A stretch of 41,387 nucleotides of DNA from a virus. Below, one piece after another: positions 497-14,352 of the stretch (positions within the stretch are counted from its first letter, which is position 1; every line of letters starts with the position of its first letter). Under the pieces are notes generated by a model. It ran no database searches. It worked only from the letters and a program-made list of their open reading frames with translations, and was not told the origin of the DNA. The stretch is from positions 1 through 41,387 of the IMG/VR virus record IMGVR_UViG_3300030098_003506, one strand, 5' to 3'. Both the position numbers and the translations under genes were made by a program.

Positions 497-537
497 CAAC
501 CAGTTCTATTTTTACCAGCACTAAATACTTATATACC

Positions 538-980: not shown

Positions 981-984
981 TTGG

Positions 985-1353
985 TTAGCAGCCATCGTCT
1001 TCGTGATCATTATTTCTTTGACGAACGCCACCACCCTTTACAAAGCCATTAGGATAGCGAGCAAGTAATTTTTCTACATTAGCCTCTGCAATTTCACTGA
1101 GGTCAAGTTGAAGATTCGCAGCAGCCATTGCAACATAGTAAAGAATATCACCAAGTTCTTTCTTAGCATCTTGACGATTCAGTGGCTTTGCATGGAAATG
1201 TTTTTTCTTAATTAATTCACAGTATTCACCAGCCTCACCAGCAATACCTAAAGCCCAGTTAAGATTAGCTTCGTCCCAAGACATATCAGGGTTGGCTGTT
1301 CGCTTACATGCTACCTGATATTCATTAAACTTTATTGTCTTTCGAGGATCCAT
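985..1353 (-). CDS. MazG-like nucleotide pyrophosphohydrolase
   Basis: This 122-residue all-alpha NTP pyrophosphohydrolase has the metal-binding acidic helices of the MazG/dUTPase-2 superfamily: GEAGEYCELIKK at about residues 39-50 (E..E..E pattern) and KELGDILYYV at about 65-74 (ExxD pattern). The enzymes hydrolyse NTPs or dNTPs to the monophosphate. In phages they are thought to alter nucleotide pools or alarmone-related signals, and which substrate this one uses cannot be told. The start overlaps the last base of the gmd stop codon, so it is the last gene of the glycan operon and translationally coupled to it, although its function is not obviously glycan-related. Confidence 0.82.
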   Translation of the reverse strand: MDPRKTIKFNEYQVACKRTANPDMSWDEANLNWALGIAGEAGEYCELIKKKHFHAKPLNRQDAKKELGDILYYVAMAAANLQLDLSEIAEANVEKLLARYPNGFVKGGGVRQRNNDHEDDGC

Positions 1354-2324
1354 TACACAATCTCCATCCAGTGGTCAACCATCTCTTCAACCATACTTTC
1401 AAAAGTATATTCAGGTTTCCAGCCTAACACCTCTCTAATCTCAGAGGAATCTCCTTTTAAGAAATCAAGCTCTTGAGCCCTAAAATACTTGGGGTCTACT
1501 TCAACGTAGTCTTCGTAGTTAAGTCCAAGCTTTTCGAAAGTAACTTTGCACATGTCTCTAATCGTTCGGCTTTCACCTGTCGCCACAACCCAGTCTCCGG
1601 CTTTGTCATTGTTTACAATCATATGCATCGCTCGAACGTAATCCTTAGAGTGCCCCCAATCTCTTGAAGCATTCAGATTGCCTAAGGCAAGCTTCTTTCT
1701 CTTACCTTTCTTAATCTCCACAGCACCCTTTACAATCTTGTTAGTAACAAAGTTTGAACCTCGTCTTGGAGACTCGTGATTAAACAGAATACCGTTACAA
1801 GCGTGCATATTGTAAGCTGCTCGATAGTGTCTAACTAAGTTGTAGCCCATTACCTTAGCACAGCCGTAAGGCGAGGTTGGTGTCATGGGTGTGGTTTTTC
1901 TTTGATGCCCATCGTCATCAACAGAGTTTCCAAACATCTCAGAGGAACTCGCTTGATAGAACTTGACGTTGGGGACAACTTGTCGGCAAACCTCCAATAG
2001 ATTTAGAACACCTAATGCGTTTGTTTGAATCGTGAAGGAGGGGACATCAAAGCTGACTCTAACATGGCTTTGAGCGCCTAAGTTGTAAACCTCATCAGGC
2101 TTAACCTCTGATATAATTCTGGTCAGTGATGGGACATCTAAAAGATCCCCGTAGTGCAACGTAAGATCAAGATCTCTAATTCTGCTGTCTTGATTTTCAG
2201 ACACAGAGTTACGACGCACAATGCCGTGAACCTCATACCCCTTGGACAGAAGAAGTTCTGCCAAGTAACTACCGTCTTGGCCTGCGATGCCAGTTATTAA
2301 AGCTTTCTTATTACTCATAGTCAT
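1353..2324 (-). CDS. gmd: GDP-mannose 4,6-dehydratase
   Basis: An extended short-chain dehydrogenase of 323 residues, slightly shorter than the usual 345-370. It converts GDP-D-mannose to GDP-4-keto-6-deoxy-D-mannose, the precursor of GDP-L-fucose, GDP-rhamnose, GDP-perosamine and GDP-colitose. The NAD(P)-binding loop is TGIAGQDGSYLAE (about residues 9-21), the catalytic Ser/Glu lie in SSSEMFG, and the Tyr-Lys pair is in YGCAK. The ATG at 2324 overlaps the upstream stop in the ATGA arrangement; a second ATG at 2318 is also possible. No GDP-fucose synthase (fcl) lies in the window, so the next step must come from the host or from elsewhere in the phage genome. The downstream use is suggested by two fucosyltransferase-family genes in the same operon. 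Confidence 0.95.
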   Translation of the reverse strand: MTMSNKKALITGIAGQDGSYLAELLLSKGYEVHGIVRRNSVSENQDSRIRDLDLTLHYGDLLDVPSLTRIISEVKPDEVYNLGAQSHVRVSFDVPSFTIQTNALGVLNLLEVCRQVVPNVKFYQASSSEMFGNSVDDDGHQRKTTPMTPTSPYGCAKVMGYNLVRHYRAAYNMHACNGILFNHESPRRGSNFVTNKIVKGAVEIKKGKRKKLALGNLNASRDWGHSKDYVRAMHMIVNNDKAGDWVVATGESRTIRDMCKVTFEKLGLNYEDYVEVDPKYFRAQELDFLKGDSSEIREVLGWKPEYTFESMVEEMVDHWMEIV

Positions 2325-3151
2325 ACGCTCTTTTCAAAGAACTCACTAATTCCGTGATCCCATAAAACCTTATGGACACTATTGTTGATTGCGAGTTCGT
2401 AATTAGTTACCACCGCCTTTAAATTAGAGTTATACCAGGACTCATTGGCGACGTTGTTTATGATGTGGGACAACTCATCTAACGTTTCAAAAATGATCAC
2501 ACCTCTCGAATCATAATAGTCATGTATGTTAGAATTCTTATCACCATAATAAATAGGCACTGTTCCACAAGCAAAACAGTCATTAGCTTTTTCAGAGGTG
2601 TATCCGCTGAATATATTCTCAACAACCACTTGATACCTGTAAGGCTTCGTGCCTGTGGACTTATCCTCTATAGGTTGATAACCTGTGCCATACAAATCAA
2701 AGTGTTTGGAAAACTTTTCAACTATGTCGTGCCTATACTTTTGTGCAGCAGTCTCTCTTTTGTTAGAAAAGATTACGGACATGTTTTTACTCTTGGGTTC
2801 CTTCCACCCAAAGTTAGTCTTGTCCATCTTTATTCTGGGCCACACAGGATAGTATCTAAACTTACTACTTAGAGAAAGTAAAGGCTTATGGTGCGTAAGA
2901 ATCATGTCGAATTTATCGTAATTCTCAGCCACCCAAGAATATATCCCTGGTAGTATTGTGATCGGCTCTACAAGCATGGCAACCTTGTACTTGCTTACAT
3001 CACTCACTTGAGGTATGAGCGAATCAACATAGATTGTCATGTTTGAGCTTTTACCTCTCACAAGGGTAATGTGGTTAGAGCATTGATTTTCTGCTCCTGT
3101 TATGTCTGGAGACAGGAAATCATGATGAAATCCTATGGTGTGTTTGTACAT
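2321..3151 (-). CDS. Glycosyltransferase family 10 (alpha-1,3-fucosyltransferase-like)
   Basis: The 276-residue protein carries the GT10 donor-binding signature at residues 171-203: YRYQVVVEN, then TSEKANDCFACGTVPIYYGD. This is the block that binds GDP-fucose in alpha-1,3/1,4-fucosyltransferases of Helicobacter and animals. The N-terminal half (acceptor side) is divergent, and there is no membrane anchor or C-terminal heptad repeat, so it is a compact soluble version. It overlaps gmd by four bases, which directly couples the donor-pathway enzyme to the transferase. Use of GDP-fucose is inferred from the family and this linkage; the acceptor is unknown. Confidence 0.85.
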   Translation of the reverse strand: MYKHTIGFHHDFLSPDITGAENQCSNHITLVRGKSSNMTIYVDSLIPQVSDVSKYKVAMLVEPITILPGIYSWVAENYDKFDMILTHHKPLLSLSSKFRYYPVWPRIKMDKTNFGWKEPKSKNMSVIFSNKRETAAQKYRHDIVEKFSKHFDLYGTGYQPIEDKSTGTKPYRYQVVVENIFSGYTSEKANDCFACGTVPIYYGDKNSNIHDYYDSRGVIIFETLDELSHIINNVANESWYNSNLKAVVTNYELAINNSVHKVLWDHGISEFFEKSV

Positions 3152-3153
3152 AC

Positions 3154-3864
3154 CTAATCCTCAAACTTGTAATCAAACAAATCTATATCTTGCTTGTAGA
3201 TCTTGCCAACCTTCTCTATCAACTCATCTGTGTAGAAATATTCGTAAGAAGGAATATCATCTTTGTCGAAGTCTAAGGGTTTCTTGTCTGAAACATTCTG
3301 AGTTGTGTCAGTATAGGGGGATGGGGGCTGGTAATAAAAATCCTCAAAGTTAATGATATCACTCAAACCTAAGTCTTCTTGAACTTTCTTCATGTCAGTT
3401 GCAAGAGACTCAACCTTTACCACTCTATCGAATTGTAGTCCTACATTTCCGTAAGAGTAACACTTCACATGCTCTTCCATTCTAGACGGATGAACATTCT
3501 CTAAAAGGTTTACGAGATCGGTGAACGTCATGTCACCACTGTAGGAGTTATTCCCAAGTTCTATGGGGAAGTTCAGATTCTTATCCCTCATCAAGATCTT
3601 CTTATTCACATAGTAAGACACCAGTCGTTTCCATGGATTTCTTACAACTATGAATTTATAAAAGTCCTTGTAGGGTTCCTCCATTAAGATGTATGGATTA
3701 CTTAAAGCATAACCACGATTATTACACTCTGCATGAGGAGACTTAGCCCACTCAAAAACACCATGAGTATTTAAGAACCAAACTTTAGCCGTAGCGCAAG
3801 CGCACTTAGCGTTCCAGACGAGCATGAACTTGTGCTGGTTACTTACTAGGATTCTATCAAGCAT
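3154..3864 (-). CDS. PAPS-dependent sulfotransferase (family 2-like)
   Basis: This 236-residue protein has both cofactor-binding signatures of carbohydrate sulfotransferases. The 5'-phosphosulfate loop is at residues 18-27 (NAKCACATAK, in which the usual Lys-x-x-x-Thr pattern is recognisable) and the 3'-phosphate motif is at 73-85 (VVRNPWKRLVSYY). Such enzymes move sulfate from PAPS to sugar hydroxyls. PAPS would be supplied by the host. Unlike the genes around it, it is preceded by an eight-base gap and by a CTATAATAG promoter-like element at 3870-3878 with no Shine-Dalgarno, so it may head an internal transcript that also includes GT10, gmd and mazG. The acceptor is unknown; a sugar in the operon's own glycan is the simplest guess. 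Confidence 0.85.
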   Translation of the reverse strand: MLDRILVSNQHKFMLVWNAKCACATAKVWFLNTHGVFEWAKSPHAECNNRGYALSNPYILMEEPYKDFYKFIVVRNPWKRLVSYYVNKKILMRDKNLNFPIELGNNSYSGDMTFTDLVNLLENVHPSRMEEHVKCYSYGNVGLQFDRVVKVESLATDMKKVQEDLGLSDIINFEDFYYQPPSPYTDTTQNVSDKKPLDFDKDDIPSYEYFYTDELIEKVGKIYKQDIDLFDYKFED

Positions 3865-3869
3865 ATGAC

Positions 3870-3878
3870 CTATTATAG
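3870..3878 (-). promoter_or_regulatory. Perfect CTATNATAG element, internal promoter of the glycan operon
   Basis: The minus strand reads CTATAATAG, with an intact TATAAT, five bases before the ATG at 3864. It overlaps the TAA stop (3873-3875) of the aminotransferase gene upstream. The distance from the end of TATAAT to the ATG is seven bases, so a transcript would begin at or next to the start codon. No -35 consensus is visible 17 bases upstream. Confidence 0.6.
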
Positions 3879-4475
3879 TCTCTTATCTTTAAAAACGGTC
3901 ATATTCCTGAGATCTGGCCAATCAGTAACAACCCATTCACGAGGAGTGCGCTGCTTTGCTTCTTTGAGTTTTTCGATGCCTGCTCTTGCCGTTTCAGGTG
4001 TCATGTAATAGTGGTATCCGGTTGATGCTATGTCTTGCTTCCTCCAGGGAATGTTGGGAAGTCTACCATCATAAGACATCTTCTTAAGTGCCACTGCATC
4101 CGATAGGCTATCAGTTAGTATCATACCCCCCTTACCTAAGCTTAAATGTTTTTGAAATTGAAAACTTAGGCACATGAGACTTCCAGGAACATAGCCATTC
4201 TCTTGCCAATGAACGGCAGCGTCTATGATATATGTATTCCCAAGAGTGTAGTAGTTCTTCCAGTCCCAGTCGTCAAAGGACCAGTTAAGTTTCAGCTTCT
4301 CTGCCGTAAAGGGAACTGAGATATAAGTTCTACAAGGAATGACAATGTCATCAGCCTTTGTGTGTCTCAAACATAGTTCAATGGCGTGAGTACAACAATC
4401 TGTAGCGACCGCGTAAGGTGCGCCATAGAATCTGGCCACCTCAGTCTCGAATTTTGCTACATCATCAAAACTCAT
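3873..4475 (-). CDS. Short DegT/DnrJ/EryC1/StrS-type aminotransferase
   Basis: At 200 residues this is about half the normal length (370-400) of PLP-dependent sugar aminotransferases. The large PLP domain is present: substrate/cofactor contacts around YAVATDCCTHAIEL (21-34), Asp85 in IIDAAVHW, and the PLP lysine, probably Lys109, in SFQFQKHLSLGKGGM. The segment YHYYMTPETARAGIEKLKEA matches the region that normally begins the last part of the fold, after which the C-terminal small domain is essentially absent. It could be an active mini-enzyme (4-amino sugar synthesis, for example perosamine-type from the Gmd product) or a non-catalytic relic. It overlaps the methyltransferase gene upstream by four bases, and its frame is open and intact. 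Confidence 0.75.
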   Translation of the reverse strand: MSFDDVAKFETEVARFYGAPYAVATDCCTHAIELCLRHTKADDIVIPCRTYISVPFTAEKLKLNWSFDDWDWKNYYTLGNTYIIDAAVHWQENGYVPGSLMCLSFQFQKHLSLGKGGMILTDSLSDAVALKKMSYDGRLPNIPWRKQDIASTGYHYYMTPETARAGIEKLKEAKQRTPREWVVTDWPDLRNMTVFKDKRL

Positions 4476-5002
4476 TTTATCGCCTCAACATTCAAGCTAA
4501 TTAAAACACCATTATCCTTGTCCATGTGAGGGATGTAAGCTTGTGAGTGATCATCAAAATTAGCGTGCTCGGTGGTTCTCCAGTCATAAGCTTTCACGAA
4601 TCTAAAACCAGCATCGACTAATATTCTTTGAATTGAGAGAAAGTCGTAAGTTGTTTTGTGGTAAATTGCAGGATCATTAAACTTACCATAAAGAGGACCT
4701 AAGACTTGATCTAACGTTATTTCACCCTGATCATAAAGACCAGTAAGAACGGCAAAATTAGGAACAGCCAAGCGAAGGATGCCATCTTTTTTCAGAACTC
4801 TTCGCCATTCCTTAAGCACATGTGCAGCTTCGTCTCTGTCGAAGTACTCCAATAAATGGGAGGCATACAGTAAGTCGCAACTATCATCATCGTAAGGAAG
4901 CTTAACAACATCATTAGAGACTACATGAGGATAATCCACGTAATCGATGTGGTGCCAGTCTTTACCAAAATCTCTCTTACCACAACCTAAGTGAAGTTTC
5001 AC
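4472..5002 (-). CDS. Class I SAM-dependent methyltransferase (paralogue A)
   Basis: This 176-residue Rossmann-fold methyltransferase starts immediately with the SAM-binding motif I, LHLGCG (residues 3-8), followed by LPYDDDSCDLLYASHLLEYF (acidic and post-I motifs) and LKEWRRVLKKDGILRLAVPN (motif III region). It lacks an N-terminal extension. It is clearly related to the gene at 6997-7551: both share GPLYGK and a PHMDK block near the C-terminus. Within a sugar operon it may methylate a sugar hydroxyl, but the acceptor cannot be read from sequence. ATGA overlaps link it to both neighbours. Confidence 0.82.
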   Translation of the reverse strand: MKLHLGCGKRDFGKDWHHIDYVDYPHVVSNDVVKLPYDDDSCDLLYASHLLEYFDRDEAAHVLKEWRRVLKKDGILRLAVPNFAVLTGLYDQGEITLDQVLGPLYGKFNDPAIYHKTTYDFLSIQRILVDAGFRFVKAYDWRTTEHANFDDHSQAYIPHMDKDNGVLISLNVEAIK

Positions 5003-5412
5003 AGAAATACCTTATCCTTCCCCTGGCCTTCATACGGACCAGTCTTGTATTCGTACACTAATGTATCATCCTCCATTATCTCGTAGGTGTGTCCACCCTC
5101 TAAAGTGAAAGATATATCTCCAGTGTTCAAAATTACTTTTTCTAGCAAAGTACCATCGGTATCATAATAAGTAACCAAGATGCTACCTCTCATTACAACC
5201 CAACTCTCCTGAGCTATGCATGAATCATAGTTTGGCTTTTTCCAGATATGCTGATGTGGTCTAAAGGTTAAACCTTTTTTCATCTTAAGATGAGCGCACT
5301 GAATGAAATTGTCTGCTGCAACCAGTTCTGTCCTTGCCTCAGTGAACTCATCAAACCGATAAAGCATGTGAAGCAACTTCTCACTGTTTAGCTTTGAGTA
5401 AATTTCTTTCAC
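4999..5412 (-). CDS. WbuC-like cupin-fold protein
   Basis: A 137-residue single-domain cupin. The first cupin motif is visible as FRPHQH near residues 51-56, followed by QESWVVMRGSILVTYYD and a second strand set GDISFTLEGGHTYE near 98-111, which resembles WbuC-family proteins. WbuC proteins are common in O-antigen and fucosamine clusters; a metal-dependent role is suspected but no reaction is established. The downstream DKVFL ending is intact. It overlaps both neighbours by four bases and sits beside a second cupin gene, which suggests sugar epimerisation or isomerisation steps. Confidence 0.7.
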   Translation of the reverse strand: MKEIYSKLNSEKLLHMLYRFDEFTEARTELVAADNFIQCAHLKMKKGLTFRPHQHIWKKPNYDSCIAQESWVVMRGSILVTYYDTDGTLLEKVILNTGDISFTLEGGHTYEIMEDDTLVYEYKTGPYEGQGKDKVFL

Positions 5413-5828
5413 ACTAATTTCTCCTCAGGAACTATACAATCAACTCTGAACGTGTCGGACTCGTAGTCACAGCCACCACGAACTCCCTCGCTAAAGACGA
5501 CAAACTCATTCCCATCTTCTCTCACTATCAAAGTGTGTACCTCAAAAGGAGGAGTAGAGACAAGATCGCCAACCTTAGCTACAACCATCTTAGGCTCATC
5601 TTCTGAATCGAGAGGCTTATACCAGTATTCTAATGATCCTTTAGTTATGAGCATGTGCTGAGTGCTTACCTTGTGGTAGTGATTACCCCTCATTACATTT
5701 GGCTCTGAGTTAATTATAGCGACATGATCTATATTCTTCTTATAGAAGATATCTGATATGCTACCTCTAGCATCTTCAAATAATTCTAACGGGGCCTCAA
5801 CGTCACGCCAAACGTTTTTTATATTCAT
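5409..5828 (-). CDS. RmlC-like cupin (sugar 3,5-epimerase/isomerase-like)
   Basis: A 139-residue cupin starting MNIKNVW. DARGSISDIF (about 19-28) and RGNHYHK (about 47-53), followed by TQHMLITKGS, match the active-site strands of dTDP-4-keto sugar 3,5-epimerases and the FdtA/WxcM-type 3,4-ketoisomerases. I prefer the ATG at 5828 because it has a strong Shine-Dalgarno (GGAGGA at 5835-5840, seven bases upstream) and an ATGA overlap with the C-methyltransferase; an upstream in-frame start at 5846 lacks this. The exact reaction is undecided, but a keto-sugar nucleotide intermediate is the likely substrate. Confidence 0.78.
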   Translation of the reverse strand: MNIKNVWRDVEAPLELFEDARGSISDIFYKKNIDHVAIINSEPNVMRGNHYHKVSTQHMLITKGSLEYWYKPLDSEDEPKMVVAKVGDLVSTPPFEVHTLIVREDGNEFVVFSEGVRGGCDYESDTFRVDCIVPEEKLV

Positions 5829-7000
5829 GATAATTCCTCCAAGCACAAAAACTCTACGTTACTGTTTATCTGCTCAATCTTTTCCTTCAACATTGATGAG
5901 ATATTCCAGGACAGTATCAAAGCATAAAACTTACCGTAACTAGAGAGAGCTTCGTCGCCCACGATAGGTATTCTGGTAAGAGGTGTATACTTACCTTTCT
6001 TGTGCTCAGAAGCGTCCGTGATACAATCCAGCAGTGTGTTATCTATGTTGTAGAAGTTTAAGAATGTATTTGTCTTAGCGGCTGCTCCGATTCCTATGAT
6101 AGGGTATCCTTCGTTTTTAATCTCATACAGCTTGGACATAACTTTATTCCTATCCTTTGTAATTTCATTCATGAAATTTTGATAGGTTTCTTCTTTAAAG
6201 AGTCCAAAGTCCTCCTCTTCAATTATTAAGTTCTCAACCTGCTTAATCATTTGAACATTGTCTTTCTTTCGAGAGAAAACTCTGATTGAACCTCCATGAT
6301 AATCAACTATTTGAACTTTGAATATTTCCAAACCATGTTCTTTCAATAAATTGAAAGCATACTTAACCGTAAAGTAAGTAACATGCTCGTGATAAACTTG
6401 ATCAAACTTCTTATCTTGAATAGTGTAGAGCCAGTAAGGCAATTCAAAGATAAAGACTCCGTCGTCACTAAGGATTTCGGAAACAGCTTTTGTAAAAGCT
6501 GAAGTGTCATTGGCATGATTGAAGACATTATTTGCAATGACAACGTCTGCAATACCAAAGTCGCTCCTCAACTGATCAAGAGAATCTAGACCAAAAAGAA
6601 CATTATGTGTCTTCACTCCGTTCTGGCTAGCAATATTCGCCATCGACTTGGACGGATCAACACCCTCCGCTTGATAGCCTTTATCTATGAACTGCTTAGT
6701 TAGGAAGCCATCATTAGACCCTACTTCAAGAATTTTAGAGCCAGCAGGCAATAGGTCGCTCACGTCATGAGCGTAATCCTCCCAATGCTTGCGCGACACT
6801 TTTGAGTTTGAAGATGTGTAAGAATAATTGTAAAGGTTGTACCTATCATCATCCTTTGTTTCAAACTTCAGACGTATCTCACCAGTCTCCTTATTTAAGC
6901 CACACTCCAACGGGTAGGTGGGCTCTGATAAGTGATACTGATCCTCAGAAATAAAGGTGTCTGCAAAGGGATGCATCCCTAATTTAATTATGGTTTTCAT
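5825..7000 (-). CDS. Sugar C-methyltransferase (NovU/TylCIII type)
   Basis: The 391-residue protein has the architecture of C-3/C-5 sugar methyltransferases. After a short N-terminal LGMHPFADTF segment comes a SAM-binding domain with ILEVGSNDGFL (90-100), an active-site region YHEHVTYF (about 203-210) with YHGGSIRVF downstream, and the C-terminal domain with IGIGAAAKTNTFLNF and DASEHKKGKYTP. Family enzymes add a methyl branch to 4-keto-6-deoxy sugars. The usual N-terminal CxxC zinc site is missing, as the protein begins just after it. Together with the two cupins downstream it implies a branched-chain, modified deoxysugar. All junctions overlap by four bases. Confidence 0.88.
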   Translation of the reverse strand: MKTIIKLGMHPFADTFISEDQYHLSEPTYPLECGLNKETGEIRLKFETKDDDRYNLYNYSYTSSNSKVSRKHWEDYAHDVSDLLPAGSKILEVGSNDGFLTKQFIDKGYQAEGVDPSKSMANIASQNGVKTHNVLFGLDSLDQLRSDFGIADVVIANNVFNHANDTSAFTKAVSEILSDDGVFIFELPYWLYTIQDKKFDQVYHEHVTYFTVKYAFNLLKEHGLEIFKVQIVDYHGGSIRVFSRKKDNVQMIKQVENLIIEEEDFGLFKEETYQNFMNEITKDRNKVMSKLYEIKNEGYPIIGIGAAAKTNTFLNFYNIDNTLLDCITDASEHKKGKYTPLTRIPIVGDEALSSYGKFYALILSWNISSMLKEKIEQINSNVEFLCLEELS

Positions 7001-7551: not shown

Positions 7552-7552
7552 A

Positions 7553-7993: not shown

Positions 7994-7994
7994 C

Positions 7995-8648
7995 TTAGTG
8001 CCCTCTCACCTTATCATAAAGAGTCTCTGCCATCATGAAATCAAACTCGGTATCAATATCCATTGACTCTATCTCATTTAAAACTTTAAATGTTGGATTC
8101 TTAGTGACAACATTCCTATGAGTTTTCATCTGTTTTCTGCTTAGTAAGCAAACACCATATGTGATCTGGTAAATATCTGGCAGATCTTGGCTATTTGGTG
8201 AATTAGTTAAATTATAATTAAGGGGCTTACCGTTCAACCACAAGTGATGTTTTACTGGCTTGACGGTAACCACACTTTCTGATCTCTCAAATTCCTTTAG
8301 GCACTCCTCATAGGTTTCCAGAGAGATGAAGGGGCAAGTAACAGGACTATACATGATATTTTCGCAATCAGTAATCGTGCTCAAATTATCAAAAAACTCT
8401 GAATTACTCGCTTGAGATCCAGCAAAATAAGGGTCTCTTTCATGGGTGGTCACCCCCATGTCTTTAGCTTTTTGCAACATTTCAGGACAATCTGAGGTCA
8501 CCACGATGTCCTGTAACCTAGACTTAAGTTTCAGTAACTTATCAAGCTTAATTTCTAAGAGGGAAGAACCTCCAAAAGGCTTTATGTTTTTATTCTTAAC
8601 TCGTTGAGATCCTTTTCTTACAGGAACTATGGCAGTTACCTTTTTCAT
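7995..8648 (-). CDS. CMP-N-acylneuraminate cytidylyltransferase family (NeuA-like)
   Basis: The 217-residue protein opens with the CTP-binding signature of CMP-sialate synthetases, IVPVRKGSQRVKNKNIKPFGG (7-27, family pattern PxRxGSxxxxxKN). It continues with VTSDCPEML (49-57) and ends with the family-typical ESMDIDTEFDF metal/sugar region (about 191-201). It should activate a nonulosonic acid (sialic, legionaminic or pseudaminic type) or a related sugar as CMP-sugar; the substrate cannot be fixed. Two genes away lies a GT29 sialyltransferase-like protein, the obvious consumer of such a donor. No sialic acid synthase (NeuB) lies in the window, so the free acid probably comes from the host. Confidence 0.85.
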   Translation of the reverse strand: MKKVTAIVPVRKGSQRVKNKNIKPFGGSSLLEIKLDKLLKLKSRLQDIVVTSDCPEMLQKAKDMGVTTHERDPYFAGSQASNSEFFDNLSTITDCENIMYSPVTCPFISLETYEECLKEFERSESVVTVKPVKHHLWLNGKPLNYNLTNSPNSQDLPDIYQITYGVCLLSRKQMKTHRNVVTKNPTFKVLNEIESMDIDTEFDFMMAETLYDKVRGH

Positions 8649-9637
8649 TATGCTAATCTCCTAATTACATCAGACCAATCTCCCTTGAATTCTATGGCCT
8701 TATCGTCAATGTAATAATCGGCTCGCGGCTTTTCAAAAGTTATCTCATCAATAAGATCTCGAATACCATGATCACGTAACCACTCATCCACAAGTTCATA
8801 ACCAGATTTACCGTTTACTAGGGGGCGGTCTGGCTTTACTTTTGCTGAGAATATCACTATCCTCCAATCTTTAGCTAGCTCCTTAATAGCTTCTAACGAG
8901 CCCTCTATTGGATCACCGTAGCAAGTGCCATCATGCCACCCTTTATCAAAGGTATGAATGACTCCATCAAAGTCGATGGCCAATGTATCAAGTTCTTCTT
9001 CAAGACCTGGGGGCACCTGCTGATTGTATAATGTACCCTCTTCAACTTCTGATTTAATACCTAAGCAATCAAAACGTCTGCTTTTAGCTTTCTTGGATAT
9101 GCTGGGGCACGTATGTCCCGCACCGTGAATAAGCTCGTAAGTTAGTGCTAATGACATTAACTCAGAAGTATGATAATACTTCACGTTCTGTATAATTTGA
9201 AGAACATCTGAATTGATGTCTTTTTCTTTCGGTTGAGCCGCCCACAAGCAAGATTTTATACCGTTATTAGATGCCCAGTTTAAGGCAGTAGCTAAACAGT
9301 CTGAGGACTTGCCGCTGGTTGAGCAAGACATACCTATTGCAAGGCATTTACTCTTATCTAAACCACGAGTACGCATATCCAACCAGTGCATCAACCAATC
9401 ATTAAAATTAGTATCGCTCTGAATTGAGGTGCATAAAACTCCACCCGCAGGTGCCACGATATTTTTATCCGTCAGGCGTGAAGCGTCAATTGCAGCGTGC
9501 TCCGCGATTGACATGTTGCCACCGTGTCCAAAGTAAAAAACATGGGTTGCCTCACTGTATAACTTCTTCAACTCGTCAAACTCAGGAGTTGATATTATAG
9601 TTCTAAACTTGTGATCAAAGTGTTCAATGTCTAACAT
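8648..9637 (-). CDS. SIS-domain isomerase fused to HAD-like phosphatase
   Basis: This 329-residue protein is a two-domain fusion. Residues 1-175 are a SIS domain of phosphoheptose-isomerase (GmhA) type, with FGHGGNMSIAEHAA (36-49) and GMSCSTSGKSSD (102-113) as sugar-phosphate loops. Residues 215-329 are a HAD-like domain with LAIDFDGVI (219-227), FSAK as motif II and YYIDDKAIEF (308-317) as the metal-binding motif. GmhA isomerises sedoheptulose 7-phosphate, and GmhB is a HAD phosphatase two steps later, so the fusion may act in a heptose or related sugar-phosphate route. The kinase step is absent here. The stop overlaps the start of the NeuA-like gene by one base. Confidence 0.8.
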   Translation of the reverse strand: MLDIEHFDHKFRTIISTPEFDELKKLYSEATHVFYFGHGGNMSIAEHAAIDASRLTDKNIVAPAGGVLCTSIQSDTNFNDWLMHWLDMRTRGLDKSKCLAIGMSCSTSGKSSDCLATALNWASNNGIKSCLWAAQPKEKDINSDVLQIIQNVKYYHTSELMSLALTYELIHGAGHTCPSISKKAKSRRFDCLGIKSEVEEGTLYNQQVPPGLEEELDTLAIDFDGVIHTFDKGWHDGTCYGDPIEGSLEAIKELAKDWRIVIFSAKVKPDRPLVNGKSGYELVDEWLRDHGIRDLIDEITFEKPRADYYIDDKAIEFKGDWSDVIRRLA

Positions 9638-9639
9638 GT

Positions 9640-10281
9640 TTACGGTAAATAATCGCTAAGAAAGTCATCCACCTTCAAACGTTTGTCAGTCGCTACGTTG
9701 TTTAAAAAGTATTGAAATTGACCTTCGATATCATGATAGTCCCCATTGTCTCCAATTTTGAATATTTCGCTTATTCTCTCCAAATCGGTATCCCCGTAAT
9801 CAGGATGCTCTTTAGCGTAACTGGTGCGGTAGAAGTCCAATCCAGTGATAAATAAGCTATCGATATCATAGTTCAGCAAATCCACCATGGCAATTAGGCC
9901 AGTATTAGGTCTGCTCTTATTGTTTTCATTCAAGCTTGTTTTAATATTAGAATACAGATCCGAATCTATTATCTCGTGCTTGTTTAAATAAGTGTAACCA
10001 TACACATGGCAAGTTTCCAGACATCGTTCATTGAAGAACCATTCCGAAGGAGGATAAGAGCAAACGAGATATTTAAGCTTTGTATCTCCATAATCATGGT
10101 AGGAACCATCATAATAGATGATGTCTGTTCTGGTTCCTGAGTCTAACGGATTACCAATTTTAGCATGATTCAATCTAACGACCACATCATGAGAATCTAT
10201 GTAAGCACCATTGTTGCTCCCTTCAATCGATTTAGCAGGGCCAACCAAGGCTACTCTCTTTCCTTTTAGATAATTATCCAC
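9640..10281 (-). CDS. GT29 sialyltransferase-like protein
   Basis: The 213-residue protein matches the layout of family 29 transferases. Residues 7-57 resemble sialyl motif L (GKRVALVGPAKSIEGS, then IDSHDVVVRLNHA and GTRTDI), and residues 124-150 resemble motif S (RPNTGLIAMVDLL, then LFITGLDFY). A His-Asp-x-x-Glu near 183-186 could stand in for the catalytic-His motif VS, although its spacing is not the canonical HxxxxE. GT29 enzymes use CMP-sialic acid. The CMP-sugar synthetase family gene two positions downstream supports the assignment. It overlaps the GT6-like gene by eight bases. No membrane anchor is present, unlike the animal enzymes. Confidence 0.72.
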   Translation of the reverse strand: MDNYLKGKRVALVGPAKSIEGSNNGAYIDSHDVVVRLNHAKIGNPLDSGTRTDIIYYDGSYHDYGDTKLKYLVCSYPPSEWFFNERCLETCHVYGYTYLNKHEIIDSDLYSNIKTSLNENNKSRPNTGLIAMVDLLNYDIDSLFITGLDFYRTSYAKEHPDYGDTDLERISEIFKIGDNGDYHDIEGQFQYFLNNVATDKRLKVDDFLSDYLP

Positions 10282-10972
10282 GGGAATCCTTCTTTAATAT
10301 CTGATCTACAGAAACATCCAACGCTAATATCATGCTGGGGAATGGTATCGACCAAGCTGATTCAGGAGCACAATAACCTGCATCTAAGATTTTCGTTGGA
10401 GGATTATCCGCGAAATACCTATTAACATGTGATTCATCATGGTATATTGCTAATATGCCCTTAGAGTCATCCTTGTCAATATTTTTTGACACCACTTCAC
10501 AAAGCTTAAGATACTCGTCAGCGGAACCTCCTTGGAAGCCTCCACAACAGTATTGTGACACCTCTTCCTTCTTAAGATAGGCTGTGGATTCTGTCTGTAC
10601 ATCCTCTGGTGTACCTTGCTTGTTAACTATAAAGCCGGGATGCTGAACTCCTAAAAGATCAGTAAGGACTTCTTCGCCAACATGATCAACGACAAGCATA
10701 TCTGCATCTAAATAGTAAATGTAATCGTAGTCCTTTAGCTTATCCTTTATTGTTAGGAAGTAGTGATAACGATAGTAGGAATCTCCAGGCCAACCCCTCG
10801 GCTCAATCTTTAATGCGACAGCATCGTGATTCAAAGGATGATTCACGTTATCCGTGAACACGAAGAAATCTCTATCGTGATTCTTTAGAAAGTACTTGTG
10901 AATAGAGTCTAACAGGGGGTTAACAAACTTCACATAGTCATTGGTCGCTACAATTACGAAAGCTATTTTCAT
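10274..10972 (-). CDS. Glycosyltransferase family 6 (ABO/alpha-1,3-Gal(NAc) transferase-like)
   Basis: This 232-residue protein carries the GT6 core: DYIYYLDADMLV (84-94) with an intact D-x-D metal/nucleotide motif at 89-91, CCGGFQGGSADEYL (142-155), and the hallmark AIYHDESHVNRYFADNPPTK (175-194), which in the human ABO transferases binds donor and acceptor. GT6 enzymes transfer Gal or GalNAc in alpha-1,3 linkage. Members are known in bacteria and in cyanophage P-SSM2. The start at 10972 gives an ATGA overlap with the GT11 gene; a longer reading frame from 11038 would overlap it by 70 bases. Coupling to an alpha-1,2-fucosyltransferase-family gene mirrors the H-then-A/B order of blood group synthesis. 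Confidence 0.9.
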   Translation of the reverse strand: MKIAFVIVATNDYVKFVNPLLDSIHKYFLKNHDRDFFVFTDNVNHPLNHDAVALKIEPRGWPGDSYYRYHYFLTIKDKLKDYDYIYYLDADMLVVDHVGEEVLTDLLGVQHPGFIVNKQGTPEDVQTESTAYLKKEEVSQYCCGGFQGGSADEYLKLCEVVSKNIDKDDSKGILAIYHDESHVNRYFADNPPTKILDAGYCAPESAWSIPFPSMILALDVSVDQILKKDSRG

Positions 10973-11754
10973 ATTAAAATCCAATCCTTCGGATGCATAT
11001 CCTTTGTTGATAAATGAGCGTTTAAAGGCCCGAACCATTTGGTGGGAGCAACAATCTTCCTACCTTGATTATTGTTTAACCAAGCTCCCCACCAAGAGAA
11101 GCTAGAGTTAGCAATTATATTGTTCTGACACAAGGACATGAGGTAAATCTCCATATAATCCTTATCCTCATCAGCTATTACATGGCCTGGGTACCTCTCT
11201 CTTGCCCACTCCTTATCGTTAGTGAAGATGAGTAGGTTGGATGGCTTGAGCAAGTCTAAGGCTCTCTCATAGTAGTCTGTGCTCGTCAGATCAGCATGAT
11301 AGTTTGAATAAGGAAGCTCTAGGTAATCTCCTCTGCGGATGTGCATTCCAGTCGTAAACTCATCTACCTTATACTTGCTCTTCAGATAGTTTAAATCCTC
11401 ATCGGTCATCTCAAACATTTTTAGAATGTGGTCTCTATTGTGTTGAAAGTAGCGATGACTTTGAAGGTAACTATTCTTAATAAAAACTGAGTTATTAACC
11501 ACTGGAATAGGTTCGAACTCAAATGAAGACTCGGTGAATACGAAGGCATGACCCTCGGACTCGTCGGTGCATAATCTCCTTAAGAAGTTATTGAAGTAGC
11601 CCCCATGGTTTGGACTCTTTATGATTGGGAAGATTGCCTTGTGTCCATTGTCTTTTGAGTAACTTAGAACTGAGGCTATTTGAAATAGCTGATTGCCAAT
11701 ACCTGCACATCCAGGTGATGGCCCAATAACATCTGAAGTGATTATATTACTCAT
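10969..11754 (-). CDS. Glycosyltransferase family 11 (alpha-1,2-fucosyltransferase-like)
   Basis: The 261-residue protein has all the conserved GT11 blocks: GNQLFQIASVL (20-30), HIRRGDY (138-144, the arginine-rich GDP-fucose contact), and IIANSSFSWWGAWLN (213-227). GT11 includes the FUT1/FUT2 H-antigen enzymes and bacterial O-antigen fucosyltransferases, with GDP-fucose as donor. The length is typical of bacterial members, and there is no signal or membrane segment. It is joined by four-base overlaps to the GT25-like gene upstream and the GT6 gene downstream. Confidence 0.92.
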   Translation of the reverse strand: MSNIITSDVIGPSPGCAGIGNQLFQIASVLSYSKDNGHKAIFPIIKSPNHGGYFNNFLRRLCTDESEGHAFVFTESSFEFEPIPVVNNSVFIKNSYLQSHRYFQHNRDHILKMFEMTDEDLNYLKSKYKVDEFTTGMHIRRGDYLELPYSNYHADLTSTDYYERALDLLKPSNLLIFTNDKEWARERYPGHVIADEDKDYMEIYLMSLCQNNIIANSSFSWWGAWLNNNQGRKIVAPTKWFGPLNAHLSTKDMHPKDWILI

Positions 11755-12365
11755 ACTTTCAATGTGAAGTTAGTAAGATCTGGTTGATCTTTTTGGTAGA
11801 AGTAAGGGCTATTTGGCGTTAGAACCTTGAAGTCCTTGTGTATGGAAGCTAACGCCACATCGCAAGGAATGAAGTCATTAAGATAAGATTCAATAACTTC
11901 AGCAGCAGCGTCGATGTATCTCTGACTCAAGAACAACATGGCATGAGTTCCGCACATGTTATACACTCTTTTAAATTCTGGTGTCTCTTGAGTAGCCATC
12001 ACGATACCAGGATATCCAAAATTATTATTCCTAATTGTGCCATGATTAGACACCCCTAAATAGACAGCGTCAGTATATTCAGGCACTGAAAACTTTAACT
12101 TGAAAGCGTCTGTTGGCACAATATCATCCTCAAACACTACAGTCCCCGGCTTCATGTTTTTCAGAAGATGCAAGTGAGACAAGCCACAACCCACAAAGTG
12201 ATTACCGTAGGGATTTGATGGTGAAGACGTAGTGTTAGCAGATGATCTCTCAAAAGGCACACCAAGCTGGTCCAAGACATTTTTACACTCTGCCATGGAC
12301 TCCTTTGATGAGTCTACATTGATGACGTAGTTCTTAGTTTTAGTTAGTTCAATAAGTCGATCCAT
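11751..12365 (-). CDS. Glycosyltransferase family 25-like protein
   Basis: A 204-residue GT-A protein of the LPS glycosyltransferase type. VGCGLSHLHLLKNM (58-71) and TVVFEDDIVP (75-84) correspond to the GT25 pattern G-C-x-x-SH followed by x-x-EDD, the latter being the metal/nucleotide-binding acidic motif. GT25 enzymes of Neisseria and Haemophilus add beta-linked galactose to lipooligosaccharide, but donor use is not predictable here. Its start lies 22 bases inside the preceding gene, and its end overlaps the GT11 gene by four. Confidence 0.78.
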   Translation of the reverse strand: MDRLIELTKTKNYVINVDSSKESMAECKNVLDQLGVPFERSSANTTSSPSNPYGNHFVGCGLSHLHLLKNMKPGTVVFEDDIVPTDAFKLKFSVPEYTDAVYLGVSNHGTIRNNNFGYPGIVMATQETPEFKRVYNMCGTHAMLFLSQRYIDAAAEVIESYLNDFIPCDVALASIHKDFKVLTPNSPYFYQKDQPDLTNFTLKV

Positions 12366-13111
12366 GCTTCAAGAACCTTATCGTCTTCCCAGTACTCAGC
12401 CTGGGTGTCATTACCCTCGTTGCCGTGGTATTTCACTCCTGCACTCTTACACTCAGGCTTGATTAAGTTAAAGGTCTCAAGCTTTGGAGAGTGGAAGACA
12501 TCAGTTAATACATCATACACTGACTGCATGTCCGTGGAGACGCCTCTGTAGGAGACTTTGTTACCAAGCAAAGGCAACACCTTATCGTTAAAATATTCAG
12601 GAGAGGTAACCGCTCCATAAATTCTAACATCGTCGTGCCCATGCTTTAGGGCTCTCTCGATAGATTCGTGAGTTCTTTTGTTCTCATCTACGCTACCAAT
12701 AATACCAGCCACTTTAAATTTATTATCTTTGGGCGTGTATTTTTGAACAATGTTCGGGATAACATGCCCATCGATACCGTGCCAATCTCTTTGAAAGTTA
12801 GAGACAAAGTGAACGTCATCAAACACCAAGTCATTCATCTCTTTGATCGGGAAGATCTCTGTCTCATGGCAAGATAGTATCTGTTTCTTAACAGGCAACT
12901 TGTCAGTCACACGCATGTAGTGGTATACAAACACATCTTCTTTTAAAGGAGACACCTCATCATGATGCTTCCATTCACAGGTTATACCCTCCCACTTATG
13001 CGGAGTGTAAAAACAAGACTTGATACCCTTCGCATTAAGAGCGTTTACAAGACTATTAAAAGCGATGGTGGAACCGCCAGGACCACCCCAACCACTAACA
13101 AATTTAATCAT
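12344..13111 (-). CDS. GT-B fold glycosyltransferase
   Basis: The 255-residue protein begins with a glycine-rich GT-B loop, GWGGPGGSTIAFNSLVNAL (7-25), has a hinge segment near HETEIFPI, and a C-terminal nucleotide-binding half with AGIIGSVDENKRTHESIERAL (135-155). It is short compared with typical GT4 enzymes (350-400), and the end lacks a clear ExxxxxxxE motif, although KPECKSAGV near 218-226 may correspond to it. Donor and acceptor are unknown. Eight-base overlap with the GT4 gene upstream. Confidence 0.7.
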   Translation of the reverse strand: MIKFVSGWGGPGGSTIAFNSLVNALNAKGIKSCFYTPHKWEGITCEWKHHDEVSPLKEDVFVYHYMRVTDKLPVKKQILSCHETEIFPIKEMNDLVFDDVHFVSNFQRDWHGIDGHVIPNIVQKYTPKDNKFKVAGIIGSVDENKRTHESIERALKHGHDDVRIYGAVTSPEYFNDKVLPLLGNKVSYRGVSTDMQSVYDVLTDVFHSPKLETFNLIKPECKSAGVKYHGNEGNDTQAEYWEDDKVLEAWIDLLN

Positions 13112-14267
13112 TTAATTTATACCCCACTTGCTGCATTGCTTGCATGTACAAGTCATACCTCCCCTGGCACGACTTTCGCCCATCAAACAAATCCTTTGTT
13201 CGTTCATGTAAGTTTCTACCCAATTCAATACGATGCTTTTTATCCTTGCAAAGTTTAGTAAGTATCCTTATCCATTCACTCTTAGGAGCATCAGGATCAA
13301 TCAAATAGCCTGTCTCACCGTTAATAATTGTATCTTCATAGCAGCCAACGTTACTGGCAACCAGCGGAATCTTGTACCGAGAGCATTCAGCCACCTTAAT
13401 ATCTGATTTAGAATCGTTAAAGTTGTTCATCTGCAAGGGTGCTATCGCAACGTCCATATCCGCGTAATAACGTCCGTAAGCATCAGGAGGTAGCGCGTAG
13501 TGGATGTTATAGTTTTTGTGCCCCTTGAAGCCCCTCAGAAGCTGTGAGAGGTACTCAGGCCAGACCTTAGCCTCCCAACTATCCTTAGGCTTCTTGGGGT
13601 CTGGGGGTGGGTGGCCATAGAAATTCCATTGCACATTTTCCTTGCCAACCTTTTGATTGACAAGGTGAGGGATGGCGTTGAAGACCTTAACATCACCCCG
13701 GTGGTGAATACCTGCCGCGTAACCAATTCTTGTAAACTTCGCTTTGGTTTTTGGGTGGTTCCACGCAGGTAGCTGGTAATCTAGGTTGTTCTTAACTACA
13801 GCTAAACATCTACCTATGAAAGGTCTAATTCTATTAGCAAACTTAGCAGACGTAACAGTCACTAGGTCAGCGTTGTAATAGCAATACTTTGTAACTTCAC
13901 CAAGCTTGTTGTCTCTGTAGGTTTCAAATAAGTGATGCTCTTCATAAAGATCGGTCAGCAAGTCATCTGTGTCAAAGTGAACAAACTTCTTTAATTCTTT
14001 AGCGATCCCAACAACACGAGCGGTATAGGGGCCTCCATACTTTAGAATGTTTGCGACAAAGACAATGTCAGCCCAATTCATGTCATTGAGCTTCTCTGCT
14101 GGAGGAGCGTAGTTCTTTTCAGGGTCCACCTCTAAAGGGTTGTCGTTGAATCTAACTTCAACCTTATCACTTAATTCCTGAGACATCATTCCTATGGGAC
14201 TTAATTGCCTATAGTAACTACACCCTCCGTGGTTTGCGAATACAACTAGTATCTTCAGTTTACGCAT
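13104..14267 (-). CDS. GT4-family glycosyltransferase, first gene of the glycan operon
   Basis: This 387-residue GT-B enzyme has an N-terminal acceptor domain opening with ILVVFANHGGCSYYR (5-19) and a C-terminal donor domain with IGYAAGIHHRGD near 186-197. Its VAECSRYKIPLVAS segment (about 298-311) is the GT4 E-x7-E region, followed by GCYEDTIINGETGYLID. It is the promoter-proximal gene of the long operon, starting five bases after a CTATTATG element with no Shine-Dalgarno, and 24 bases downstream of the terminator that ends the gp32 unit. Sugar specificity is unknown. Confidence 0.85.
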   Translation of the reverse strand: MRKLKILVVFANHGGCSYYRQLSPIGMMSQELSDKVEVRFNDNPLEVDPEKNYAPPAEKLNDMNWADIVFVANILKYGGPYTARVVGIAKELKKFVHFDTDDLLTDLYEEHHLFETYRDNKLGEVTKYCYYNADLVTVTSAKFANRIRPFIGRCLAVVKNNLDYQLPAWNHPKTKAKFTRIGYAAGIHHRGDVKVFNAIPHLVNQKVGKENVQWNFYGHPPPDPKKPKDSWEAKVWPEYLSQLLRGFKGHKNYNIHYALPPDAYGRYYADMDVAIAPLQMNNFNDSKSDIKVAECSRYKIPLVASNVGCYEDTIINGETGYLIDPDAPKSEWIRILTKLCKDKKHRIELGRNLHERTKDLFDGRKSCQGRYDLYMQAMQQVGYKLND

Positions 14268-14271
14268 AGGG

Positions 14272-14280
14272 ACATAATAG
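14272..14280 (-). promoter_or_regulatory. CTATNATAG-type promoter element of the glycan operon
   Basis: The minus strand reads CTATTATGT, seven of nine matches to the operon-head element, four bases before the ATG at 14267 and immediately after the terminator hairpin. It is the only promoter-like sequence between the terminator and the roughly 13-kb operon, so it probably drives all of it. No -35 hexamer is recognisable. Confidence 0.5.
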
Positions 14281-14290
14281 TCCTATGAGT

Positions 14291-14327
14291 ATAAAAAAAC
14301 TAACCCAGATCCAAGGACCTGGGTTAG
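14291..14327 (-). terminator. Rho-independent terminator after the gp32 unit
   Basis: CTAACCCAG (14300-14308) pairs perfectly with CTGGGTTAG (14319-14327), with three further pairs possible inside the loop. On the minus strand the stem is followed by a run of seven T and then AT (14299-14291). It lies downstream of the lipoprotein gene and upstream of the glycan operon, so it separates the two units. The plus side has no T-run. Confidence 0.9.
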
Positions 14328-14352
14328 AAACATTGGTTCGCCCTTTGTTTTT

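Follow-up and report, generated by a model that had tools for sequence, protein, structure and literature searches.

A T4-like phage operon that appears to join two recurring modules of glycosylation genes

LPS gene clusters are known in the T4-like cyanophages P-SSM2, S-SSM7, S-SM2 and S-SCSM1, and the papers describing them already propose a change of the surface glycan as their role (PMC3037559, PMC7824862, PMC9602691). According to two other papers, the blood-group-type O antigens of E. coli O86 (WbwK, WbnI) and of Bacteroides ovatus (BoGT6a) involve the GT11 and GT6 families (PMC4202792, PMC3961637). The DNA analysed here, a stretch of 41,387 nucleotides from IMG/VR record IMGVR_UViG_3300030098_003506 (hereafter the window), is a fragment of a T4-like phage genome, and it carries an island that has both of these families and that resembles the cyanophage clusters in being large and co-directional, in its epimerases/dehydratases and in its several transferases and methyltransferases. 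As in the island, GT6, GT11, GT25-like and gmd-type genes lie within one cluster in P-SSM2; unlike in the island, GT29-like, CMP-synthetase and isomerase-HAD genes were undetected in the stretches of P-SSM2 (36.7 of 252 kb searched), B23 and LR745206. Large LPS-type islands that include GT6 are already known in cyanophages, and the novelty of this one lies in the joining of two modules and in a sialyltransferase relative of dual resemblance. The original prediction that the operon reshapes the host surface glycan is plausible, but the idea is not new, because the same role has already been proposed where large cyanophages carry LPS clusters.

The island is, as first described, a single 18-gene operon with overlapping genes: its 18 open reading frames (positions 1353-14267) all lie on the minus strand, as do all features located below, and neighbours overlap or are separated by at most 8 bases. 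The run is extended by one gene for a MazG-like pyrophosphatase (mazG, 985..1353; PF03819, 41 bits), and a terminator-like hairpin with a 12-pair stem and TTTTTTT is found at 14300..14327, 5' of the operon's first gene. Neither terminator-like sites (14, against a shuffle mean of 11.8) nor promoter-like sites (36, against 34.6 in shuffles) are enriched in positions 1-16000. The island's neighbours are replication genes (gp32, helicase, RNR, ThyX), which is no proof of early expression. The T4 late-promoter octamer occurs nowhere in the window, so that as a test of the island's timing it is empty.

The island is under purifying selection and is kept by the phage. All 18 island frames stay open in a relative that is 90% identical at the DNA level, and dN/dS against this relative is 0.032-0.085 in 17 of the 18 genes, the remaining one (6997-7569) having no value because dS is saturated; the nine genes flanking the island gave 0-0.24. 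The island is therefore not stuffer DNA, nor a set of chance frames, which bears directly on the proposal that such genes are functionless host-derived filler for headful packaging. 'Stuffer DNA' was left open for large-genome cyanophages in the report on their LPS genes (PMC3037559), and for the present island, at least, selection shows that the DNA is more than filler; with module partners that also recur across dereplicated viral loci, we find this explanation scarcely credible.

Four of the genes belong to what we call module A (gmd, GT11 and GT6, in many loci joined by a GT25-like gene). The gmd gene, for GDP-mannose 4,6-dehydratase (1353..2324; PF16363, 4e-120, 402 bits), scores 401 bits with TIGR01472, just under the equivalog cut-off of 415. 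A scan for the GDP-fucose-synthase (fcl) motif GMVG gave none in the six frames of the 91-kb contig, so that by motif scan of this possibly incomplete contig the GDP-L-fucose pathway (gmd plus fcl) is represented by gmd only. The GT11 gene (alpha-1,2-fucosyltransferase family, 10969..11754; PF01531, 1e-19, 71 bits) has the signature motif of that family, HxRRxD, as HIRRGD. The GT6 gene (ABO family, 10274..11038; PF03414, 7.5e-31, 108 bits) probably starts at 10972 (Met23) rather than at the annotated position, and a Met is found there in 53 of 82 viral relatives. Its homology to BoGT6a (1.6e-37, residues 23-243) and human ABO (about 1e-28, residues 22-226) in the PDB spans the catalytic domain, with both DAD (DXD type) and the catalytic glutamate of HDE present. 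All 82 viral relatives have DXD, while the 84 ORFs sampled from the bacterial set divide into 54 with DXD, 29 with NXN and one unreadable; BoGT6a itself is of the NXN type, in contrast to the island protein, according to its description (PMC3961637). Searches for GT6 relatives gave 452 viral stretches and 184 bacterial or archaeal genome stretches. The fourth gene, for a GT25-like transferase with an EDD motif (11751..12365), matches PHROG 24091 (unknown function, 1e-27); its single sequence is under the PF01755 cut-off (21.5 against 24 bits), 10 of the 13 rows of its alignment, window included, match PF01755 at E <= 0.01, and E79, D80 and D81 are invariant.

Module B centres on a GT29-like sialyltransferase relative (9640..10281) with sialylmotif L and S-like and VS-like motifs. 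It scores 30.2 bits with PF00777 (cut-off 23), the match of the single sequence covering residues 8-56 only, which is sialylmotif L, and all 26 GT29-like rows, window included, match the same family. The 26-row profile matched ST3Gal1 (2e-10, spanning 5-151) and CstII (1.4e-7), and also ST6Gal1 and CstI, so that by profile comparison the phage proteins appear to resemble both animal GT29 and Campylobacter GT42 sialyltransferases. The island protein has sialylmotif L, an S-like motif and the VS His in common with these enzymes, but is shorter (213 aa), shows no membrane anchor by reading and has Gln in place of the VS Glu. In a 75-row viral alignment, which includes the window and its two near-copies, the PNTG of sialylmotif S (125-128) has P in 57 rows, T in 53 and G in 73; His183 of the VS motif (HxxxxE) is kept in 73, and the Glu position holds Glu in 46 and Gln in 23. 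At least 120 viral stretches contain the GT29 L-motif pattern, and among the matches listed 116 hold an ORF matching the GT29-like profile, the window's own contigs included; two bacterial phyla also gave GT29-like matches, the first in 12 of 398 genomes and the second in 6 of 292, with several matches partial or weak. Many viral contigs and some bacterial genomes thus carry sialylmotif genes, against a 2014 review which describes bacterial sialyltransferases as devoid of sialylmotifs and not GT29 (PMC4202792).

Next to it lie genes for a fusion of a GmhA-like SIS phosphosugar isomerase domain with a HAD-like domain (8648..9637) and for a member of the NeuA-type CMP-nonulosonate (sialate) synthetase family (7995..8648; PF02348, CTP_transf_3, 1e-10, 42 bits). 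The isomerase-HAD profile matches GmhA (8.5e-14), and residues 1-174 of its AF2 model (pLDDT 82) align with GmhA at a VIA Z of 18.4; the C-terminus matches PHROG 1238, the HAD label resting on annotations of matching phage genes and on motif reading. The synthetase profile is closer to NeuA (1.1e-36) than to KdsB (4e-12), and the single sequence is closer to PseF (2.7e-16) than to KdsB-type enzymes (7.8e-6), both under the curated cut-offs. CMP-sialic acid would be a candidate donor for the GT29-like protein, as suggested by the NeuA-type gene close by, a neighbour that recurs in other loci. Family profile searches found no NeuB or NeuC among the 18 island genes. The operon had been framed in terms of histo-blood-group and Lewis-type glycan synthesis; the enzyme families hold, but these labels denote families and not products, and the animal framing is loose, GT6 and GT29-like relatives having been found in viral stretches and in prokaryotic genomes as well; with no fcl motif and no NeuB/NeuC found the island alone would not be expected to make a histo-blood-group or sialyl epitope.

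The operon's first gene encodes a GT-B glycosyltransferase (Glyco_trans_1_4, 13104..14267; Pfam 36.4 bits, cut-off 27; PHROG 7162, glycosyltransferase), with relatives at 46-54% in viral loci. The following protein (12344..13111) had zero matches in Pfam, PHROG and NCBIfam and is a probable GT-B fold transferase by predicted structure only: a modest AF2 model from 4 rows (pLDDT 70) matches GT-B enzymes of the PDB by Foldseek (2e-5, TM about 0.4) and by VIA (Z 12.8, rmsd 5.6, 225 residues). Downstream are a protein of no known family, ParB-like by reading only (7553..7993; a 38% relative in contig L052, below), a SAM methyltransferase (6997..7569; PF08241, 28.7 bits), a sugar C-methyltransferase family member (Methyltransf_14, 5825..7000; PF08484, 3.4e-36), a sugar isomerase/epimerase-like cupin (5409..5846; PF14667, 35.5 bits; FdtA weak), a cupin of WbuC (4999..5412; TIGR04366, 43.1 bits, cut-off 42), a family of O-antigen clusters, and a second SAM methyltransferase (4472..5002; PF08241, 40.4 bits). 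There follow a half-size DegT/LegC-type aminotransferase that keeps the PLP lysine motif (3873..4475; PF01041, 58 bits) and has short homologues in loci L121 (62%) and L219 (55%), a PAPS-type sulfotransferase (Sulfotransfer_2, 3154..3864; PF03567, 72.2 bits; PHROG 3347) and a GT10 protein (alpha-1,3-fucosyltransferase family, 2321..3151; motif ENIFSGYTSEK). The latter is just under the PF00852 cut-off as a single sequence (22.3 against 23.9 bits), its 18-row profile matches solved PDB fucosyltransferases at 3.3e-22, and R140, E178, N179, E187, K188, P199 and G203 are invariant in the 18 rows. Sequence and structure searches bore out the families originally named, to graded degrees: the gmd, GT6, GT11, sulfotransferase and CMP-sialate-synthetase calls are firm, with Pfam scores over the cut-offs, and the GT10, GT29-like and GT25 calls are good once relatives are added, GT10 and GT25 falling short as single sequences; one of the two GT-B calls is likewise firm, with a Pfam match, and the other is structural only. 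The isomerase-HAD protein, C-methyltransferase, WbuC cupin and half-size DegT were absent from that first description.

Gene content across viral contigs suggests that two modules which recur in phages have come together in the island: gmd/GT11/GT6, and GT29-like/CMP-synthetase, the latter often with the isomerase. We compared 33 GT6 and 90 GT29-like dereplicated viral loci for partners within 4 kb, a limit that corrects only partly for their unequal length (medians 20.6 and 10.1 kb). The best supported result is the pairing of GT11 with GT6, far above the comparison set: GT11 is present at 23 of 33 GT6 loci and 4 of 90 GT29-like loci (p=2e-13). The corresponding counts are 23/33 and 14/90 for gmd-type genes and 16/33 and 5/90 for GT25-like genes. 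Conversely, the CMP-synthetase accompanies 34 of 90 GT29-like loci and 0 of 33 GT6 loci (p=5e-6). The isomerase-HAD gene is tied to GT29-like genes only weakly: within 4 kb it occurs at 15/90 GT29-like and 1/33 GT6 loci (p=0.067), and over the whole locus at 21/90 and 2/33 (p=0.036). Among 44 viral loci with both a GT29-like gene and a synthetase, the isomerase protein is encoded in 23 and, by reading, a NeuB-like synthase in 7. GT10 (6/78 GT6 and 7/118 GT29 loci) and the sulfotransferase (0/78 and 1/118) are tied to neither module. A list of transferases thereby resolves into two modules, each recurring among viral contigs and each open to testing. Both occur in L052, a 191-kb IMG/VR contig of a distant T4-like phage (matched major capsid protein segments only 32-48% identical), with GT11, GT6, GT29, isomerase-HAD and CMP-synthetase ordered as in the island and identities of 70% for isomerase-HAD, 60% for the synthetase and 40% for GT29. 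The C-methyltransferase, cupin, methyltransferase and the homologue of the 7553 gene are shared as well, but in another order, and the 14.5-kb stretch compared has no gmd, GT10, sulfotransferase or DegT match.

We consider the island to be, with fair probability, a phage-maintained glycosylation cassette of LPS/O-antigen type, whose two modules alter the terminal surface sugars of the host; gene content, families, co-occurrence and purifying selection are observed, and from this we infer sugars, linkages, acceptor, timing and benefit. Module A would use GDP-6-deoxyhexose and UDP-sugar donors, its product most likely being a fucosylated, GT6-capped terminus, while module B would activate a nonulosonic (sialic-acid-like) sugar and then attach it. 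The C- and other methyltransferases, cupins, DegT-like protein and sulfotransferase may tailor the sugars. Family searches recognised no flippase, polymerase, ligase or initiating transferase among the 18 genes (two of them without family), so that synthesis of a whole polymer by the island cannot be shown; the phage would rely on the host both for core pathways and for acceptors, either lipid-linked or LPS. The altered sugars of the infected cell could then block rival phages or change the phage's own receptor.

The same transferases, being cytosolic, could reach assembling virions, and chloroviruses provide a precedent in that they glycosylate their own capsid protein with virus-encoded enzymes. 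Glycosylation of capsid or tail proteins, for stability or to avoid binding wrong surfaces, is nevertheless a doubtful alternative, since the operon lies among replication genes, remote from the genes for gp23 and the tail, none of the 18 genes was recognised as encoding an oligosaccharyl- or protein O-transferase, and the WbuC, LegC-like DegT and NeuA families indicate LPS/O-antigen-type pathways. Many tailoring enzymes would also suit a soluble or secreted sugar-containing metabolite that leaves the surface glycan unaltered, one option proposed for a second sugar/amino-acid gene cluster of cyanophages in its description (PMC7824862). Seven transferase genes (of graded certainty), with no non-sugar scaffold gene recognised, make this unlikely. 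Very unlikely is a modification of the phage DNA with sugars, after the manner of T4 glucosyltransferases: the phage is T4-like, and a single DNA glucosyltransferase (1y6g, Z 11.3, level with many other entries) figures among the 50 VIA rows of the 12344 model, but ThyX is the sole base-modifying enzyme among the window proteins scanned (the 91-kb contig being annotated in part), and the remaining island families act on glycans, as GT6, GT11, GT10, GT29-like, NeuA and sulfotransferase enzymes do.

Returning to the cassette for host surface sugars, it is conceivable, if rather improbable, that phages form a self-circulating reservoir of such terminal-sugar cassettes, including a lineage of small sialylmotif transferases as a link between animal GT29 and bacterial GT42 and an all-DXD GT6 lineage; two such cassettes would be combined here to cover a host, in the course of infection, with both fucosylated A/B-type and nonulosonic-acid branches. 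If so, the scatter of 'animal' families among bacteria may be due to exchange by viruses and not to cell lineages. Small, soluble members of these families might moreover be of use as tools for glycan synthesis. By reading, no photosynthesis genes were seen in the window. The capsid protein is less than 60% identical to each of 2473 matching phage records, and the top-ranked matches come from an uncultured phage (29.8%) and from Vibrio phages (28%), closely followed by those from Synechococcus phages.

The island of 18 minus-strand sugar genes (1353-14267) combines two modules that recur in viral loci: one of gmd, GT11 and GT6, often with a GT25-like gene, and one of a GT29-like gene and a CMP-sugar synthetase, often with an isomerase-HAD gene. 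ORFs of collected loci were searched with profiles grown from the island's 18 proteins. The viral GT6 set comprised the best 80 of 452 loci, the genome set the best 80 of 184 GT6 loci from bacteria and archaea, and the viral GT29 set at least 120 stretches retrieved with a motif L pattern; our counts leave out both contigs of the window itself, which contribute two loci to each viral set, and so cover 78 GT6 and 118 GT29 loci. Among the loci listed, GT11 occurs in 66 of the 78 viral GT6 loci versus 7 of the 118 viral GT29 loci, while the CMP-synthetase occurs in none of the former and 44 of the latter. Because median locus length is unequal (20.6 versus 10.1 kb), we also applied a stricter comparison, dereplicated at 70% identity with partners at most 4 kb away (33 GT6 and 90 GT29-like loci). 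GT11 then accompanies 23/33 GT6 versus 4/90 GT29-like genes (p = 2e-13), and the synthetase 0/33 versus 34/90 (p = 5e-6); GT25-like genes are found at 16/33 versus 5/90, and gmd-type genes at 23/33 versus 14/90, with a profile that picks up other sugar epimerases too. For the isomerase-HAD gene the difference is not significant within 4 kb (1/33 versus 15/90, p = 0.067), and p is 0.036 when it may lie anywhere in the locus (2/33 versus 21/90). The gmd motif proper is present in 31 of the 78 viral GT6 loci, 14 of which also have the fcl motif. GT11 and GT6 are strictly adjacent, on one strand and no more than 300 bases apart, in 13/78 viral and 18/80 genome loci. GT10 (6/78 viral GT6 and 7/118 viral GT29 loci) and the sulfotransferase (0/78 and 1/118) are members of neither module.

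The island is like P-SSM2-type clusters in kind, P-SSM2 itself carrying GT6, GT11, GT25-like and gmd-type genes, and this kind of cluster is known. What is new is the fusion with a CMP-nonulosonate/GT29-like module, together with GT10 and the sulfotransferase. Apart from the two window contigs, the only one among the matches listed to combine all five families (GT11, GT6, GT29, isomerase-HAD and synthetase) is L052, a 191-kb IMG/VR contig of a distant T4-like phage. There they stand in the identical order, GT11-GT6-GT29-isomerase/HAD-synthetase, followed by a C-methyltransferase, a cupin, a methyltransferase and a homologue of the gene at 7553, in an order unlike the window's. Since the isomerase-HAD and synthetase of L052 are 70% and 60% identical to those of the window, whereas matched segments of the capsid protein are only 32-48% identical, we infer that the cassette seems to have moved between phage lineages.

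The original prediction described these as the enzyme families of histo-blood-group and Lewis-type glycan synthesis, which is right for the family names and should be taken as nothing beyond them. Its gmd, GT6, GT11, sulfotransferase, cytidylyltransferase and one of its GT-B calls each score above the Pfam cut-off. As single sequences, the proposed GT10 and GT25 fall just under it; GT10 became firm with an 18-row alignment (PDB fucosyltransferases, 3.3e-22), and PF01755 was matched by 10 of 13 GT25-like rows, the window's own protein included, such profile scores depending in part on the relatives placed in the alignments. Used as single queries, the GT10 and GT29 proteins retrieved no loci beyond the two contigs related to the window. 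The second supposed GT-B (12344) belongs to no sequence family; its predicted model (pLDDT 70, built from four rows) resembles GT-B enzymes with a large rmsd, and the product is likely to be one.

Left unused in that prediction were minus-strand genes for a sugar C-methyltransferase family protein (5825-7000), a WbuC-family cupin (4999-5412), a half-size DegT (3873-4475), and a SIS phosphosugar isomerase domain with a HAD-like C-terminus (8648-9637). The SIS domain is nearest GmhA (profile 8.5e-14; model pLDDT 82, with VIA against GmhA giving Z 18.4 and rmsd 3.2 over 164 residues), and the C-terminus corresponds to PHROG 1238; phage genes that match it are annotated as dehalogenase-like hydrolases. 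A CMP-Kdo route (KdsD-, KdsC- and KdsB-like) for this gene and the synthetase (7995-8648) was dropped, as the synthetase profile is NeuA-type at 1e-36 versus 4e-12 for KdsB; for the isomerase part GmhA is nearest, yet KdsD also matched at a VIA Z of 16.2, which is not decisive. Short DegT versions with the PLP lysine motif kept occur in two other viral loci (L121 and L219; 62% and 55% identical), so the window's copy is not a local wreck. The half-size form, which has no C-terminal domain, is conserved beside gmd in several phages (window 3873-4475 (-); L121:11119-11724; L219:14490-15077).

The GT29 call for the gene at 9640-10281 exceeds the Pfam cut-off, with a match confined to residues 8-56. 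A tblastn search with this gene against 50,697 phage records gave no match, but the idea that it is unique to the window phage was rejected, since the motif L pattern matches at least 120 viral stretches. In an alignment of 75 GT29-like rows, which takes in the window and its two near-copies, conservation of motif L follows from the construction of the search pattern, while S and VS are independent of it. The S motif residues are P in 57 rows, T in 53 and G in 73; the VS His is present in 73/75, and the VS Glu position is occupied by Glu in 46 rows and by Gln in 23, among them the window. All 26 rows of a smaller set match PF00777, and the 26-row profile matches both ST3Gal1 (2e-10, positions 5-151) and, over nearly full length, Campylobacter CstII (1.4e-7, positions 5-205). 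PMC4202792 classes CstII as GT42 and describes bacterial sialyltransferases as lacking sialylmotifs and not belonging to GT29. We propose that the GT29-like genes may form a lineage bridging GT29 and GT42. In cellular genomes, any prophages counted, matches occur in 12/398 from the phylum that includes an Arenibaculum locus (Pseudomonadota) and in 6/292 from that of a Moorena locus, Moorena being a cyanobacterium; several of these matches are partial or weak. Among the open-licence PMC papers listed in our searches, none was recognised as describing a phage sialyltransferase. Where viral loci carry both a GT29-like gene and a CMP-synthetase (44, not dereplicated), common neighbours, named by reading, are dehydroquinate-synthase-like (11 loci), class III aminotransferase-like (10), NeuB-like synthase (7) and HpcH-type aldolase (6) genes, possibly phage routes to unusual acidic sugars.

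The GT6 ORF was called from 11038; because Met stands at its Met23 position in 53 of 82 viral relatives (22 are not aligned that far), a start at 10972, overlapping the GT11 gene by 4 bases, is more likely. Its alignment with BoGT6a spans residues 23-243, and that with human ABO transferases residues 22-226. DXD is present in 82/82 viral GT6 ORFs; of 84 ORFs in the genome set, 54 have DXD, 29 have NXN and one is unreadable, a sample biased to DXD by the phage GT6 query. PMC3961637 gives NXN as the bacterial rule and mentions two cyanophages with GT6. On a tree of 170 rows, there are 8 changes of the viral label versus 57 in shuffles, and the window groups, with modest support (80), with four other rows: L052, two further viral ones and one bacterial. 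By eye, the window GT6 has Cys-Gly-Gly at the site of Leu-Gly-Gly (266-268) in human GTA. No donor sugar was drawn from this by-eye comparison. Residues 266 and 268 are those named in PMC4202792.

The window phage is T4-like. The window, a virus record of 41,387 bases, matches a 91,106-base IMG/VR contig along its entire length at 99.97%; its gp23-type capsid protein is 28-33% identical to the 25 best of 2473 matching phage records; and it encodes a gp32-type SSB, a DnaB-type helicase, ribonucleotide reductase and ThyX, as well as tail sheath and tube genes recognised by reading. The island lies in the replication neighbourhood, between a gp32-adjoining gene and mazG (985-1353), with structural genes elsewhere, and its ORFs overlap or are separated by at most 8 bases. 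The late-promoter sequence TATAAATA has no match across the window, and, upstream regions inspected by eye also offering no usable pattern, inference of expression timing from promoters was dropped.

Sullivan et al. (PMC3037559) did not decide between a function and 'stuffer DNA' for the LPS genes of cyanophages; the island is functional. In a second contig (27,347 bases, 90% DNA identity to the window) all 18 island frames are open. dN/dS was obtained for 26 of 28 window genes compared, the exceptions being 6997-7569 (saturated dS) and 20355-21956, and is 0.032-0.085 in the island (17 values) and 0 to 0.24 in nine other window genes. Between the two contigs, dS is 0.24-2.4 over 60-15731 versus 0.06-0.17 in the neighbouring replication genes (15778-20365), and alleles in the former zone are therefore either older or more often exchanged. 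This zone extends past the island, and the several-fold difference in dS suggests exchange of a block of that greater width.

None of the 18 island genes can be recognised as encoding an initiating transferase, flippase, polymerase or ligase, and a search of the 91-kb contig gave no fucose-synthase motif, so the phage would probably borrow host precursors and acceptors and modify a host polysaccharide at its outer sugars. On one branch GT11 would act, then GT6; on another, the GT29-like enzyme would add a CMP-activated nonulosonic sugar; methyl and sulfate groups may tailor the sugars. The main rival to such alteration of the host is that the island decorates the virion. With host polysaccharide as the target, the benefit might be exclusion of rivals or a change of receptor, as PMC7824862, PMC9602691 and PMC3037559 already propose for the LPS clusters of cyanophages.

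A 497-aa protein at 24759-26252 (+), one of two plus-strand genes among the window genes listed, has no Pfam match and a hydrophobic N-terminus, and on reading resembles a secreted carbohydrate-active protein. A 1295-aa ORF among the tail/baseplate genes of the 91-kb contig (L005:8128-12015, +), also without a Pfam match, has an N-terminal part that reads like a glycoside hydrolase; comparison of the two shows no homology (best E 0.73). The family A DNA polymerase of this T4-like phage (26249-28864, -) consists of three overlapping ORFs, with a uracil-DNA-glycosylase-like and 3'-5' exonuclease piece, a middle piece without a Pfam family and the polymerase domain, which represents either a real split or sequencing errors. 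PMC3037559 places tRNAs near cyanophage LPS clusters too; six tRNA genes are present in the 91-kb contig (L008:18349-19059; L009:4069-4145), five of which form a cluster some 7 kb past the island.
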